Shown piece after piece: positions 5,882-40,380 of a DNA stretch of 64,000 bases (position 1 is its first letter; the number at the start of each line of letters is the position of its first letter). Source of the stretch: an uncultured Gammaproteobacteria bacterium (lineage in GTDB: Bacteria > Pseudomonadota > Gammaproteobacteria > Pseudomonadales > Pseudohongiellaceae); contig CAIOZF010000085.1 of NCBI GenBank assembly GCA_903862645.1, positions 62,001 to 126,000 of the forward strand, read 5' to 3'. Made by a program: the position numbers and the translations under genes. The notes under the pieces were generated by a model. It did no database searches, was not told where the DNA came from, and saw only the letters and a list, made by a program, of their open reading frames with translations.

Positions 5882-7996
5882 TCAATCGCCCAGACTGAAG
5901 ACGTATACAGCATTACCGCTGGCGGCATGACGGATTTCCGGTGTTACGATCGCAGGTACCTGGCGTGGGCTGGTGCCACCAACGGCGGTGGTGACGGCGA
6001 TGTATTGTTTGCCGTCAATGGCGAAAGTCAGCGGGTGGCCCTGTACGGAGGTGCCCAGGCGGGTCTCCCACAGAATCTCCCCAGTCTCCACATCGAAAGC
6101 ACGGAAACGACGATCCAGATCACCCACGAACAGGATGTCCCCCGCAGTAGAGAGCACGCCCGTCAAGAAAGAGGCGCGCTGTTCATAGCTCCACTTTTCT
6201 TCCAGTGTTCTAACATCGTAAGCGGCCAGTTTGCCGACGTTGCCATCCGAACCCGGCATTTCGAAGAAGCGACGACTTGCTGCCGTGCCGCCGGAACCGG
6301 GAACGAGCTCAACTGCGCGCGCCGCATTTTCAAGACAGGTCTGGCTCAGAGGCGCAATCAGCACACCACTTGGCTCGTGATAGCTCATGGAGTGCCAGTC
6401 CTTGCCGCCAGCGCTGCTCGGGCATGACGAGGTCCACTCGTCGATCTGTGCATTGATGATGTCGTCACGGTAGGTGACAGCGCCAGTTGCATAATCGATG
6501 TTGCTGAAGGCATTTTGGAACATGGTCTCGGTGAGGCCGATGAATTCGCCGTTAACACGGTCGTTCTTCCATAGGATGCCGTACTTGCCGAGCGAGAACA
6601 CCGTCTTGCGGCCGTCTACGTCGATCAGGACGCGCTCGAACACTTCGTCCAGGTCCAATGCCTCGCCGGGTACATGCTGAAAGTGCCAGTCCAGCTCACC
6701 ATTGTCGACATTCAGGGCGATGGTGGAGTTGGTGTAGAGGCCGGCGTCGTGGATGGACATGTGACGGCTGACCGGTACCCATGGCTTGGCCTGAGCTGTG
6801 CCCCAGTAGGTCCGCTTCAGTTCCGGGTCATAGCTGCCGGTGATCCAGGTCTCGCCGCCCTTGCGGTAGATGTTGTCCAGGCCGCCCCAGGTCTCGCCGC
6901 CTGGATACTCGGAATGCGCGACCGGGTTGAACTCCCAAAGGCGCTCGCCGGTGTTAACGTCGTGCGCAGTCATGAAGCATTCTTCTTCGATGTAGGTCGC
7001 GCAGCCCGCCATTCCCAGAATGACCTTGCCGTCGGCAACGATCGGGCCGCTGGAATTCGCGAACCCCTTGCTGCTGTCAGCGACGACCGTTTCCCATATC
7101 TTCTCGCCGGTGCGGGCATCCAGTGCCAGCAGGCGGGCGTCGGTCGTGGCGTGAATGACCTTATTGTCATAGAGAGCAATATTGCGCATGTCTTCACGCG
7201 TCGCGGGGCCGGCGCGGTGTTCCCAGATCAGCTCGCCGGTAGCGGCGTTCAGTGCTTGAATGATGTTGCTGGTGTTGATCAGGTACATGATGCCGTCATA
7301 AACCAGCGGCGCGGGCTCGGATGCGCCCTCGTGCATGTTCCACACCCATTCCAGCGTGAGGTCGCCGACATTGCGGCGGTTGATCTGATCCAGTTCGCTG
7401 AAGCTCCAGGCCTGGTAGTTGCCACGCATCATCAGCCAGTCGGAGGGGTCCGGGTTGCGCATCATCTCGTCGGTAATAGGAACGAAGTTTTCCACGGTAC
7501 CGGCGACGGTCACGCCGAGCGGCTCCGGCGCTGCTGCTGGACGCTGAGCACCTGCAGCGGCTGCTTGAATCCCACTGCCAACCTGGGCCGTGGTGTTTGC
7601 GGTCAAGGCCTGGGTGCCGGCGACTGCGCCGTTCACCTGCATGATGTATGCGACGATGTTGCCGACCGTCTCATCAGACAGAGGCGTCGTGCTGCCGGGC
7701 GGCATGGAGGACTTCACCTGACGAAACAGGTCACCCGCTGCGCGCGTGCCCCAGCGTGCGAGGAAAGGCGAGCCGGCCAGAAGCGGCGCGGTTGGAGTTC
7801 CTTGTAGCTGTGCGCCGTGACAGGCGGCACAGGTGCTCTGGAACAGCGCCGCCCCCGCGTTTGCCTGTGCAGCGGTGAAGGCGCCTGCGGATGCTCCTGC
7901 CTGAGCACTCGCCTGACTTGCGTAGCCGGCGAGCAGCACGCTGAGCAGTGCTGTGCCGAGTTGTGCCTGCAATCGGTTCGGTCGAGAGAAGATCAT
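5882..7996 (-). CDS. PQQ-dependent dehydrogenase-family quinoprotein with N-terminal cytochrome c domain
   Basis: N-terminal [18 protein letters not shown]...GNIVAYIMQ cytochrome c fold, then PQQ beta-propeller repeats ([14 protein letters not shown]..., [40 protein letters not shown]). Confidence 0.85.
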
Positions 7997-8077
7997 GGGA
8001 TGCCTCTATGCATATTGATGTTGTTATGGTGTCTTGGTTATTTGAAAGCCGCAAACGTCTTCAGACTGGCACGAGGC

Positions 8078-8542
8078 TTAGTGCATCAGCCAGCCACGGA
8101 TCTCGCCAGTAGGGTTATTTTCACTGTGAATCTGCACATACAGACTTTCTGCGTGCAGCGCGGCGATCAGCTCCGGCGTCAACGTGAGGGTGCCACTGAT
8201 GGTGCCGCTGGTCGCACGGGTCGCGTCGATGGTGAGCACCACCGGGCCGGGTTGAGCCTTCGGTCCCTGGTGGATATGGGCCATGGTGACGGGCGAGCTC
8301 AGTCCTGTGAATTCCCCGCTGATGGTTAGCGTATTGCCACTCAGCTCTGCCCTGACTTCACCTTCTCCAGTGATGGTGGTGACAGTCTGCGCCGTGCGCG
8401 GCACCGGCGCGAGTCTGCCGCGAAGATTGTTGCCCATATTTTGAGCGTAAGAGGTGGTGCTGAGAAGGGCGACGAACAGGCCCAGCAGCAGAATGGACAG
8501 AACGCCATTGTGATGGCGGGACAGGGTATGGATGTGGTTCAT
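8078..8542 (-). CDS. CHRD domain-containing exported protein
   Basis: [19 protein letters not shown]...[33 protein letters not shown] matches CHRD signature. Confidence 0.8.
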
Positions 8543-8667
8543 GGCAGACCTCGGTTATTGTTTTGCGGCATTATACTCACGTTCTGCAACGAGCGGCGAG
8601 CCCGGATTTGGCGTGGAGACTACCACCCCATACTGGCCATTTTCAATGCTGGGTATTGGGGCTGGAG

Positions 8668-9110
8668 TCAGGGCGCGATCAATTCACGGGGTGCCTTGTC
8701 GAGTTCCTTTATAAAGAACGCAAGGAAGCGCGCCATGCGCTCCAGCCCTGGCTCGGAGATCGCCTCCAGGACTTCGCCGCTGGTGTGGTAAAGGGGAGGG
8801 GCCTGCATGGTGGTGACAATCGCAACGTATTCACGATAGCCATCTTCAAACTGGCTGCGTGCCGGGGAAAAGTTACGCTGTGCCACGTGTTCGATAGTCA
8901 GTGTCACGAAAGTATTGGCAGCAAGTTCCGGATTGAGGGTGATGAAGTTGCTCGACCCGTTCAGCCCCGGGCTATGGTGTCCGGCGCCGTCAAACCATGC
9001 ATCGACGTGGGCGTTGATGACGATGACTTCTGCACTGTCACGGCTGGCGATTATGCGGCTTCCAGGAAGGTACCGTCGCGACCGCCGACGTTGAAGCCGG
9101 GGCCGCCGCA
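8668..9110 (-). pseudogene. Decayed M28-family peptidase remnant (N-terminal truncation, internal deletions)
   Basis: [52 protein letters not shown] reads as an M28 peptidase missing the segment between the DGAG and GHHxPGLNG motifs; upstream piece [17 protein letters not shown] lies in another frame. Confidence 0.6.
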
Positions 9111-9522
9111 GGGCCACTCCATGGGCGGACATGGCGCCCTGATGATGGCGCTGCGTAATCCCGGCCGCTATCGCTCGGTATCCGCGTTTGCCCCCATCGT
9201 GGCACCTTCACAATGCCCCTGGGGACGCAAGGCCTTTGGGCACTATCTGGGTGAGGTTGAGCAGGCGTGGCAGCAATACGATGCTGCTGTTTTGCTGCGT
9301 CAGGCGCGCCAGCAGGTCCCGATGCTGGTGGATCAGGGGGAGGCGGATACTTTTCTGAGCGAGCAACTGCAGCCCGCGCTTTTATTGCAGGCAGGACGGG
9401 ACTGCAATTACCCGATTCTGTATCGCAGTCGCCCCGGCTATGACCACAGCTACTATTTCATCGCGACCTTCATCGAAGAGCATCTGCGCTTTCATGCTGC
9501 GCATCTGGCTGTTGCAGACTAA
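9108..9522 (+). pseudogene. S-formylglutathione hydrolase C-terminal fragment
   Basis: [48 protein letters not shown]...[21 protein letters not shown] is the C-terminal part of the esterase D/FGH family; N-terminal part absent. Confidence 0.75.
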
Positions 9523-9557
9523 TCCTGTAGATTATGCGGCGGACACCTGAGCTTTTT

Positions 9558-9995
9558 TCAGCCCAGATTGCGCTCGAGAATATGCGTGGGTGCGCCGTCT
9601 ATGCTCAGCTGATTCTTATCTGCCGAGTACTGCTGTATTCCCTCCTCGCCTTTTTTTGCGGCCCACTCGGTCAGCAACTCCCGATCGGCTACATACGAGA
9701 AACTGGGAACAGCCATTCCGCAGGAGTTTTGCACGAGATCGATGGTGACCCCTCGAAGGAACAGAACAAGATTGTCATGCGCGGGGGCTGCTGCACATGC
9801 GCGGAGCTTTCGTTGCCACTGCCTGTCACGTTCAGCCAGATGACGCGTGTGCTGCTCACTACGCGCAGTGCATCCATGCCCTTGGGCGACACGTTGATCC
9901 GATCGTCTGCCGTCGTGGTGCCGACAGAGAAGATCTTCTGGTCAGCGATAAACTGGTGGTTTTTTTTCAGATATTTACTTGTATTGCTGAGCCAT
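9558..9995 (-). pseudogene. Pyridoxamine 5'-phosphate oxidase-family protein, frameshifted and internally deleted
   Basis: Start MAQQYK* with upstream AGGAG, then in another frame HQFIADQKIFSVGTTTADDRINVSPKGMDALRVVSSTRVIWLNVTGSGNESSAHV; after a deletion/frameshift LVQNSCGMAVPSFSYVADRELLTEWAAKKG...THILERNLG*. Confidence 0.7.
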
Positions 9996-36549: not shown

Positions 36550-37605
36550 TCAATCGCAGTTATAGACCGTGTTGGTCGCCTCATCAATCTGCCGCACCAC
36601 CGACCAGTGTTCCTGATAGGTGATTGGCAGAAACTGCTCCATCGCCGCATCGGCAAATTCGCGCTGCAGCGCTGTGCCTTCCCAGTCAAACGTAAAGAAT
36701 GCCTCCCGCACCTTTGCGGCGATATCCGGGTGTAGATCGTGGGCGATGCCATAGCCGGTGGTGGGGAAGGAAGCGGATTTGTAGATCGTTGTGTATTGCT
36801 CGGCGCGCACCACGTCGCGGGCGATCATGCGATACAGCACTTCGTTGGCAATCGCCGCCGCGTCGTAGTCCTTGTTCACCACGCCGAGGATGGAGTTGTC
36901 ATGGCTGCCGGAGTAAGCAGTTTTGTAGTCACGATCTGCCGCCAACCCGAACTCGGATTCCAGCAGCGACGAAGGTGCCTTGAATCCCGAATTGGAGGTC
37001 GGCGCTGTGAACGCCAGTGTGCGGCCAGCCAGATCGGGAATTGTGGCGATGCCGCTGCCGGGCCAGGTGATGATCTCCATCTGGTAGCCATAGCTGCCGT
37101 CCTTCGCCGCCATCATCGTGAAGGGCACGAAGCCGACACAGTTCACGGCGATGGGCGTGGAGCCGGTGTTGAAACCCGCTACATGCAGCCGCCCGGCGCG
37201 CATCGCTTCGAGCTGGGCCGCGTTGGACTGCACCGGGAAGAAGCGCACTTCCTTGCCGGTGAGAGTTTCCAGATGGTGGATGAATTCGTCCCATACCTGC
37301 GAGTACATGGCCGGGTCTTCGACGGGCGTATAGGCAAAGATGAGGATGCGCGGGTCGCGCCAGCGCGCGGGGTCGCTCGGCAGATCAGCGACCAGATCGC
37401 CATCGGCGTCCTGGTAGCGGGGGGAGAGTTCTGCGGCATGCAGAGGGACTTGGCACAGAAGTAACGTAAGCACCCAACTGTGGGAGCGGGCCATGGCCGC
37501 GATCAGACGTCGTGCAAAGGCCGATCGCGGGCGAGGCCCGCTCTCATCCTGGCGTGTACGCGTCTTCAGCAGAATTGTCGACATACGTGTTGCAGTGCTC
37601 ATCAT
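36550..37605 (-). CDS. phnD: Phosphonate-type ABC transporter substrate-binding protein (PhnD)
   Basis: ILIFAYTPVEDPAMYSQVWDEFIHHLETLTGKEVRFFPVQSNAAQLEAMRAGRLHVAGFNTGSTPIAVNCVGFVPFTM; start with GGGAG RBS near 37605, alternative ATG 37494 inside a REP. Confidence 0.85.
   Translation of the reverse strand: MMSTATRMSTILLKTRTRQDESGPRPRSAFARRLIAAMARSHSWVLTLLLCQVPLHAAELSPRYQDADGDLVADLPSDPARWRDPRILIFAYTPVEDPAMYSQVWDEFIHHLETLTGKEVRFFPVQSNAAQLEAMRAGRLHVAGFNTGSTPIAVNCVGFVPFTMMAAKDGSYGYQMEIITWPGSGIATIPDLAGRTLAFTAPTSNSGFKAPSSLLESEFGLAADRDYKTAYSGSHDNSILGVVNKDYDAAAIANEVLYRMIARDVVRAEQYTTIYKSASFPTTGYGIAHDLHPDIAAKVREAFFTFDWEGTALQREFADAAMEQFLPITYQEHWSVVRQIDEATNTVYNCD
37479..37546. repeat. Paired REP-like element within the 5' coding region of phnD
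   Basis: CTGTGGGAGCGGGCCATGGCCGCGATC ... GATCGCGGGCGAGGCCCGCTCTCAT. Confidence 0.8.
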
Positions 37606-37674
37606 GGCAGGCTCCCTGGAGAGCCATTCTGCCTGACAAGTCTGCCTGTTTGCCATCCCGTCCTGCTCGGCTGC

Positions 37675-40380
37675 TTACTCGGGCTTCGGCGAATGGGGCG
37701 TCTTGCGCTTACCCTTGTCTTTGTCGACGCGCTTGCTCTTCGCCTTTGGCTTGGCCGGCTTGCCGTTCAGGCCCAGGATAGGACGCGCTGCGCGAATGCC
37801 AGGAGCTTCCATGGCAGGGAAACGCTCCAGCACTTCACGGGTGATGTCAGTGCTTTCGACGCCACGGAACGCAGGCTTCTCAGCACCGTCCTTGGCGAAG
37901 GTGTCACGCTTTAAGCCCGGCTTTTTGAAATCGGGTTTTTTAAAATCCGGCTTCTTGAATTCGGCCTTCTTGAAGTCCGGCTTCTGGAAACCTTCCTTCT
38001 TGTAGGAAGGCTTGCTGGCCCCTTCAGGCTGCTGCTCTGACCTCTGATAAGCGGGCTTTGCGGATGCGGGTTTCGCGAACCCAGGCTTGTCAAAAGCAGG
38101 CTTCTGATACCCTTCCTTCTTGAACGCGGGCTTGCTGGCACCATCTTTGCGGAAGGAATCCTGCGCGGCGCCGGCAGACTTGAAGCCGTCTTTATTGAAA
38201 CCTTCTTTCTTGAAAGCAGGTTTCTTGTACTCGCCGCCAGGAGTTGCATCGCGCTGATAGCCTTCTTTTTTGAAGGCGGGTTTTACAAAAGCAGGCTTCT
38301 CGAACGCCGGCTTGCTGAAGCCAGCTGGTTTCTCATAGGCGGGCTTGGCACTGGGGCGCTCGTATTCGGGCTTGTTCACTGGCTCGATCAGCAGCGGCTT
38401 GCTGCAGACGTGAGTGCGTTTGAGAACCTGCATCACTTCGGGGGGCATGCCGCTGGGCAGGTCCACGGTGCAGTAGTCGTCATAGATGCGAATGTGGCCG
38501 ATGTAGCGGCCTTCGATGTCGGCCTCATTGGCGATTGCGCCCACCACTTCACGCGGAGTCACGCCATCGCTATGGCCGACGTGGATACGGAAGCGCTCCA
38601 TCTTGATGTCCGGGTAGTCTCGCAGCGGCTTGGCACGGCCGTCATCCGCAGGCGAATGCGGGGAGACATAGCCTGGCGTCTGGCGCGGTTCGCGGACGTC
38701 ACGCGTGGGTCGCGACTCGCGAGCGCGTGGTGCCTCGTCCTGTTCGTCTTCAGCAAGAATCTGCTCGAACAGCGTGTCGGAGGGGATGCGCTTCTCCCGA
38801 GAGGGTTTGGTCGGGCGGTCTTCGAATTCGTCGTGTTCTTCAGCATCCAGGGGCTTGCTGGCCGCGCTTCCACCTTCACTGCGTTTCGGCAGATTGGCTG
38901 CGGGCAAATATTCAGTGCGTCGTTCCGCCTGGACAGGACGCTCTGCTCTGGCAGGTCTTGATGTCGTTTCCTCACGTGGGCGACGCGGTGCTCTGTCCCC
39001 CTTCGGCTCTCCATAGGCAAAACCTTCGCGGTCGCTGCGCGGCGATTCATGCCCCATCACAGGTTCCAGAGGACGATCTTTTTGCAGCAGATAAGCCATC
39101 GCCGCAGCGACGTGTTCGGGCGTGCACTCGTGCTCTTTCACCAGATCAGCCACCAGCTTGTGGAAGAAATCCAGTTTGCCGTGAACGATGGTTTCAGCGA
39201 TTCCTTCCTTGAACTGAGTGCTTCGCTTCTCGATCAGCTCGCCACGCGTTGGCAGTTCCATCTGGGTGATCTTCTTGCGGGTGGTCTTCTCAATCGACTG
39301 CAGCAGACGTCGCTCACGCGGTGCCACAAACAAAATCGCCTTGCCGCTGCGGCCGGCACGACCGGTGCGGCCGATGCGATGCACGTAGGCTTCGTCATCG
39401 TAGGGGATGTCGTAGTTCATCACATGGCTCAGACGGTCAACGTCCAGACCACGAGCCGCCACGTCGGTGGCCACAAGAATGTCGAGCTGGCCGTTCTTGA
39501 GCTGCTCAATGGTGCGGGAACGAATTGCCTGGTTCATGTCGCCGTTCAGGGGTGACGCAGCAAAGCCTCGGGCGCTGAGTTTTTCGGCGAGATCGACGGT
39601 GCTGGTCTTGGTGCGCACGAAGATCAGCATGGCATCGAAGTCTTCCACTTCGAGAATGCGGGTCAGTGCGTCGAGCTTGCTGGTGCCCTGAACCAGCCAG
39701 TAGAACTGTTCGATGTCCTCGTTCGTGGAGATGGCGCTCTGGATGCGGATTTCCTGCGGGTCGTGCAGATATTTTTCGGCCACAGCACGGATCTGCGGCG
39801 GCATGGTGGCAGAGAACAGCGCCACCTGACGGGACTTGGGCGTGTTCTCCAGAATGGACTCCACGTCGTCTATGAAGCCCATGCGCAGCATCTCGTCGCC
39901 TTCATCGAGCACCAGAGTCTTGAGCTTGGACAGATCGATGGTCTTGCGATTGAGGTGGTCCAACAACCTGCCAGGCGTAGCCACCACCACATGAGCGCCC
40001 CGGCGCAGACCACTGAGCTGACGCCCCATGTCCTGCCCACCGTAAATCGGCAGCACGTGGAACCCGCGCATACCGGCGGCATAGGTCTGGAACGCTTCAG
40101 CCACTTGAATTGCCAGTTCGCGGGTCGGACACAGCACCAGCGCCTGCGTATGCGCCTGGCTCAGATCGATCTTCGCGAGAATGGGGAGTGCAAAGGCCGC
40201 GGTCTTGCCGGTGCCGGTCTGCGCCATACCCACCACGTCCTTGCCTTGCAGCAGAACAGGAATGGTGGCTTGCTGGATTGGCGAGGGCTTTTCGTAGCCC
40301 ACCTTGCTCAGCGTTTCCTGCAGGTGTTGTGGTAGATCGAGCTCAGCAAAACTGAGTTCCGGGCGTGTACTGGATGACAT
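37675..40380 (-). CDS. deaD: DEAD-box ATP-dependent RNA helicase, DeaD/CsdA-like, with a long repetitive C-terminal tail
   Basis: Q-motif, AQTGTGKT, VLDEGDEML, SAT, HRIGRTGRAGR; RNA-binding domain (RFRIHVGHSDGVTPREVVGAIANEADIEGRYIGHIRIYDDYCTVDLP) then KPAFKKEG repeats. Confidence 0.85.
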   Translation of the reverse strand: MSSSTRPELSFAELDLPQHLQETLSKVGYEKPSPIQQATIPVLLQGKDVVGMAQTGTGKTAAFALPILAKIDLSQAHTQALVLCPTRELAIQVAEAFQTYAAGMRGFHVLPIYGGQDMGRQLSGLRRGAHVVVATPGRLLDHLNRKTIDLSKLKTLVLDEGDEMLRMGFIDDVESILENTPKSRQVALFSATMPPQIRAVAEKYLHDPQEIRIQSAISTNEDIEQFYWLVQGTSKLDALTRILEVEDFDAMLIFVRTKTSTVDLAEKLSARGFAASPLNGDMNQAIRSRTIEQLKNGQLDILVATDVAARGLDVDRLSHVMNYDIPYDDEAYVHRIGRTGRAGRSGKAILFVAPRERRLLQSIEKTTRKKITQMELPTRGELIEKRSTQFKEGIAETIVHGKLDFFHKLVADLVKEHECTPEHVAAAMAYLLQKDRPLEPVMGHESPRSDREGFAYGEPKGDRAPRRPREETTSRPARAERPVQAERRTEYLPAANLPKRSEGGSAASKPLDAEEHDEFEDRPTKPSREKRIPSDTLFEQILAEDEQDEAPRARESRPTRDVREPRQTPGYVSPHSPADDGRAKPLRDYPDIKMERFRIHVGHSDGVTPREVVGAIANEADIEGRYIGHIRIYDDYCTVDLPSGMPPEVMQVLKRTHVCSKPLLIEPVNKPEYERPSAKPAYEKPAGFSKPAFEKPAFVKPAFKKEGYQRDATPGGEYKKPAFKKEGFNKDGFKSAGAAQDSFRKDGASKPAFKKEGYQKPAFDKPGFAKPASAKPAYQRSEQQPEGASKPSYKKEGFQKPDFKKAEFKKPDFKKPDFKKPGLKRDTFAKDGAEKPAFRGVESTDITREVLERFPAMEAPGIRAARPILGLNGKPAKPKAKSKRVDKDKGKRKTPHSPKPE

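Follow-up and report, generated by a model that had tools for sequence, protein, structure and literature searches.

The phnD gene examined here raises a twofold question: can a short, dispersed palindrome lying between a start codon and the hydrophobic core of a signal peptide be translated as part of that signal, and if so, how did it come to be there? The gene sits within a window of 64,000 nucleotides (the whole stretch of DNA that was analysed) from an uncultured gammaproteobacterium, where it leads a D-C-E-E transporter set. The Phosphonate-bd domain of its product, together with the downstream ABC partners (an ATPase and two permeases), identifies it as a PhnD type. The features of interest, in the order of transcription, are as follows.

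37675 to 40380, minus strand: DEAD-box RNA helicase gene (DeaD/DbpA type, by Pfam), its end separated by 69 bp from the phnD start
37612 to 37617, minus strand: Shine-Dalgarno sequence AGGGAG, within the small hairpin GGCTCTCCAGGGAGCC (37610 to 37625)
36550 to 37605, minus strand: phnD-like gene for a periplasmic phosphonate/phosphite-type binding protein (PF12974, E 2.6e-57), with its best start, ATGATG, at 37605
37552 to 37605, minus strand: coding segment ahead of the REP, MMSTATRMSTILLKTRTR
37523 to 37546, minus strand: REP arm nearer the start, encoding approximately DESGPRPRS (by inverted repeat and family match)
37481 to 37504, minus strand: REP arm nearer the signal-peptide core, encoding approximately LIAAMARSH (by inverted repeat and family match)
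37492 to 37494, minus strand: ATG within the REP stem, an unlikely start
37435 to 37476, minus strand: signal-peptide hydrophobic core with c-region, WVLTLLLCQVPLHA (hydropathy peak 2.1)

The original prediction had described this reading frame, its ATGATG start with a Shine-Dalgarno sequence, the peptide that the REP encodes in frame and the core that follows, and all were found as it described them. Shine-Dalgarno pairing for the start at 37605 is worth -7.4 kcal/mol, and the same start is shared with two relatives, L061 and L062. A longer open reading frame beginning at 37656 (MANRQ) was discarded: it is not conserved, and the frame upstream has stops in both of those relatives. A twin-arginine reading of ARRLIAA was also dropped because relatives lack the motif. 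The hairpin around the Shine-Dalgarno sequence is perfect in L061 (GGCTCCCCGGGGAGCC) and could limit initiation. A scan of the region for promoters and terminators found none on the minus strand. The order of helicase and phnD is retained in relatives; the helicase of the window itself carries a long, repetitive C-terminal tail rich in KPAF, KPGF and KKEG.

By its sequence, the element is a REPIN-like REP pair of the GTAG superfamily. Its two 24-nt arms, separated by a gap of 18 nt, are 83% complementary, and the RNA of the pair folds at -39.5 kcal/mol (z = -5.1). That a paired REP occupies the signal-peptide coding region of phnD, as had been proposed, is borne out by this inverted repeat and by membership in a genuine repeat family. 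The family has four matches in the window where 0.15 were expected, and 55 REP-like sites in its own 3.1-Mb genome compared with one for a reversed control pattern; across several genomes of the genus, copies range from near zero to 577 (in G010). Such short, G+C-rich, imperfect palindromes, dispersed at high copy, are what define a REP. Two of them in opposite orientation around a short spacer, the arrangement of a REPIN, occur in the window and likewise in L061, L062 and L064. The GTRG tag at the palindrome foot reads GTGG in most copies and GTAG in a second REP type; at the 37546 arm it has been lost, and the sequence there is GATGAG. A search of Rfam returned no match.

The genomes of the genus contain matches to PF01797, the Y1-type (RAYT-type) transposase domain, three of them in the window's own genome. 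No REP was found within about 3 kb of nine Y1 genes (one from each of nine genomes), as would be seen in a REPtron, and these genes are no more than putative cognate mobilisers.

Is the REP translated? The open frame that runs through it, from the ATGATG start into the signal-peptide core, is weak evidence by itself, since all six frames of the REP consensus are free of stops. Evidence for translation therefore has to come from relatives. The REP block is 72 nt long and has the same offset, frame and core junction in the window, L061 (genome G011), L062 (G013) and L064 (G010); a contig of G009 begins within the same REP. Counted by species, four others in the genus share the pair with this placement and frame; one more (G005) has a REP of a different type at the same place, GTAG/GCAG...GCGAGCTTGCTCGC, which may reflect either turnover or a separate event. 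Because the feature recurs in independent genomes, an assembly artefact was rejected as its source.

In every relative with a complete 5′ end, the most favourable start codon is an ATG or GTG that has a Shine-Dalgarno sequence, precedes the REP and shares its frame, so that both frame and upstream start are conserved across species. The window, L061 and L062 have ATGATG preceded by AGGGAG or GGGGAG, with an in-frame TGA just upstream in L062; L064 has an ATG with AAGAGAGG, immediately behind the helicase stop, and L065 has a GTG with AAGGGGG. From the start to the mature region, the distance is 177, 189 and 261 nt in the window, L061 and L062, respectively, all multiples of three even though they include a partial duplication of 66 nt (135 and 186 nt from their own starts in L064 and L065). 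The spacer from helicase to ATG, obtained by subtracting these values from the stop-to-mature distances of 246, 259 and 330 nt, is 69, 70 and 69 nt and so varies by a single nucleotide.

Substitutions point the same way. In the 18 codons ahead of the REP, six of the nine columns that vary among three species fall at codon position 3 (binomial P 0.042), and pN/pS is 0.12–0.28. Within the REP, changes show no codon preference (pN/pS about 0.6–1.3), as expected if the residues it encodes are tolerated instead of selected, and the residues themselves may not matter. Considering the coding-like changes ahead of the REP and the length differences in threes, the REP is most likely translated as a long n-region of the signal peptide.

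A different view would place the REP in a 5′ untranslated leader, with translation beginning at a weak codon downstream and the hairpin regulating or protecting the mRNA. The open nature of REP frames and the lack of codon-level constraint within the REP would suit such a leader, and a survey of REPs within genes argued that many N-terminal cases are mis-annotated leaders (PMC3733652). Yet no start is conserved downstream of the REP; in L062 and L064, only TTG and GTG codons are available from the REP onwards, mostly too near the core or within the stem. Moreover, the frame is held from the upstream start to the core in all cases, and the substitutions upstream of the REP look coding. We regard an untranslated leader as unlikely.

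The second option of the original prediction, that the REP supplied a new start codon at 37494, is not supported. This ATG is private to the window's genome, where relatives read AAG, GAG or TGG, and it lacks Shine-Dalgarno pairing (0.0 kcal/mol) and is buried in the stem (mean accessibility 0.29); for these reasons it is an unlikely start. Its use as the main or a second start in this one genome would give a textbook-length signal peptide, MARSHSWVLTLLLCQVPLHA, of ideal length and charge for a Sec signal. Nevertheless, the upstream start with its good Shine-Dalgarno sequence is still kept in the same genome. A second product from the internal ATG is possible, its use as the main start is unlikely, and the proposal as a whole seems improbable. 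Translation from the upstream start through the REP, the lengthened n-region that had been offered as the other option, is what the comparison favours: the best starts are upstream and in frame, whereas signal peptides are of normal length, 25–26 aa, in relatives that lack the REP. The mRNA hairpin may also control translation, as the original prediction suggested.

Those relatives also bear on how the arrangement arose. In a tree of the phnD mature-region DNA, the six REP-bearing genomes form one clade (100/99), a group that reappears with weak support in the protein tree (81/14). In the six remaining genomes of the genus with phnD, the signal peptides are short and of the ordinary kind, for example MTTARQITALTLGCLGMLAMASGHA; such a comparison of phnD 5′ ends was the check that had been suggested for the prediction. 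Only 16–17 signal residues are left after the REP, compared with the 25–26 of the REP-less relatives. Upstream, a motif that is called promoter-like from its conservation, ATTCCCCTATA(C/A)TC, is present in six of six REP-less relatives and absent from all five clade members whose sequence covers this region. Outside the clade it is strictly conserved about 119–128 nt before the mature PhnD codons (L037–L042), with TTTGTGACA upstream in some. The distance from helicase to mature region is 152–330 nt in the clade versus 399–1464 nt outside it. In the sister genome G008, REPs lie in the helicase–phnD spacer, the nearest about 60 nt upstream of the motif.

The idea that a mobile palindrome inserted itself into the signal peptide is thus probably incomplete: a REP does lie between start and core, but the clade has also lost the promoter-like motif and most of the spacer, which fits loss of the old 5′ end beside an intergenic REP better than it fits insertion. 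We consider it probable that, in the clade ancestor, a REP pair from the spacer came to be part of the phnD coding sequence, where it is now read as a long n-region. The pair would first have sat between the DEAD-box helicase gene and phnD. The old promoter, the start codon and the first nine or so codons of the signal peptide would then have been lost in the clade ancestor, and a new start with its own Shine-Dalgarno sequence, just behind the helicase gene, would have taken over. Translation from this start would run through the REP in frame and into the old hydrophobic core, so that about 22–24 REP-encoded residues would give a Sec signal peptide a long n-region that is mostly basic and tolerant of sequence change; export and cleavage are likewise presumed. 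An intergenic REP would thereby have become coding through the loss of what once stood between it and the core: the old promoter, start and n-region. It counts against this account that the starts of G010 and G005 differ from those of the window group and that Sec signals rarely have an n-region as long as 43–66 aa.

Alternatively, the REP pair may have inserted directly and in frame into a signal peptide that already existed, at about codon 9, with the old promoter and start lost later; the REP would be translated as before, but by a different history. The genus has Y1-type transposases, REP pairs are regarded as mobile, and in-frame REPs within coding DNA are seen in uvrA. However, no recognisable remnant of the old n-region is found upstream of the REP, such a history requires two events, and G008 already has REPs in its spacer. 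Insertion is therefore rather doubtful, and loss of the old 5′ end beside a spacer REP is retained as the better account.

REPs within coding sequences are already known. GTAG/CGTC REPs have been described inside genes, in frame and adding 20–30 aa, in uvrA among others and in many instances at the N-terminus, where most were held to be probably extragenic, non-coding or mis-annotated (PMC3733652). The phnD REP belongs to the same palindrome superfamily and shares the dimer arrangement; unlike those N-terminal cases, it has comparative support as coding sequence, lies in a signal peptide, is shared by a clade and accompanies the loss of a promoter-like motif. The classic in-frame palindromes are those of Rickettsia (RPEs), which add residues to many genes (PMC10969869; PMC3733652). 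The phnD REP is likewise small, palindromic and in frame; going by their descriptions, RPEs of the first families are longer (about 150 bp), whereas the phnD pair is short and lengthens an export signal. Pseudomonas REPINs similarly consist of two inverted REPs and a spacer in genomes with Y1-type transposase (RAYT) genes (PMC3116915; PMC8049555), but they are essentially extragenic, and the RAYT-like genes sampled in the present genus have no adjacent REP.

Among the papers available to search, none offered a precedent for a REP within a signal peptide. The phnD case stands apart in that its REP lies in an export signal, that comparison of relatives supports translation and that a conserved promoter-like motif has been lost alongside; the before-and-after history is unusually clear. 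Most REPs at N-termini have been put down to faulty annotation. Here the case is confined to one clade, sister genomes lack the REP, and non-coding repeat DNA appears to have been turned into a working part of an export signal. The locus makes it possible to test what share of a Sec n-region may be of arbitrary sequence, and by what means a gene outlives the loss of its promoter and start codon.

Other genes of the genus also carry REPs in frame, in line with a coding REP in phnD. In REP-rich genomes, uvrA contains REP-encoded peptides at three internal in-frame sites (L162, at G000:C122 ~7535–9955, and L163–L166), within variable linkers that are missing from REP-less orthologues (L167, L168 and L170); similar REPs are on record for uvrA of Opitutus and Thioalkalivibrio (PMC3733652). 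In phoX, all four close genomes have a REP ahead of the twin-arginine (Tat) motif TRRRFLSGF (L004 1387–1700, G000:C85 from 10773 onwards; L153–L157), with a likely start at a GTG upstream of the REP that has a GAGGGGG Shine-Dalgarno sequence; PhoX of G002 is shorter at this region. One might imagine that this genus has recruited REPs more than once to form the n-regions of export signals (phnD, phoX), with the translated hairpin tuning start choice or ribosome pace for phosphorus-scavenging export, a highly speculative idea to which we give very little credence. Overall, REPs are depleted from genes: intragenic clusters numbered 3 of 27 in loci of the window's genome, which covered part of its REPs, and 2 of 72 in G010, by an automatic survey that is insensitive (42–48% of random positions are called intragenic) and that overlooks cases lying close together, part of uvrA among them.

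The phoX REP of L155 is flanked by a direct repeat of about 24 nt (CTCGATACxGCAxGAGGAGTTGxCC). Further in-frame REPs occur between the two domains that make up a Pyr_redox–AIRS fusion (L001 467–2761), in an HrpB helicase (L006 410–3007) and within a family 2 glycosyltransferase (L025 876–1748).
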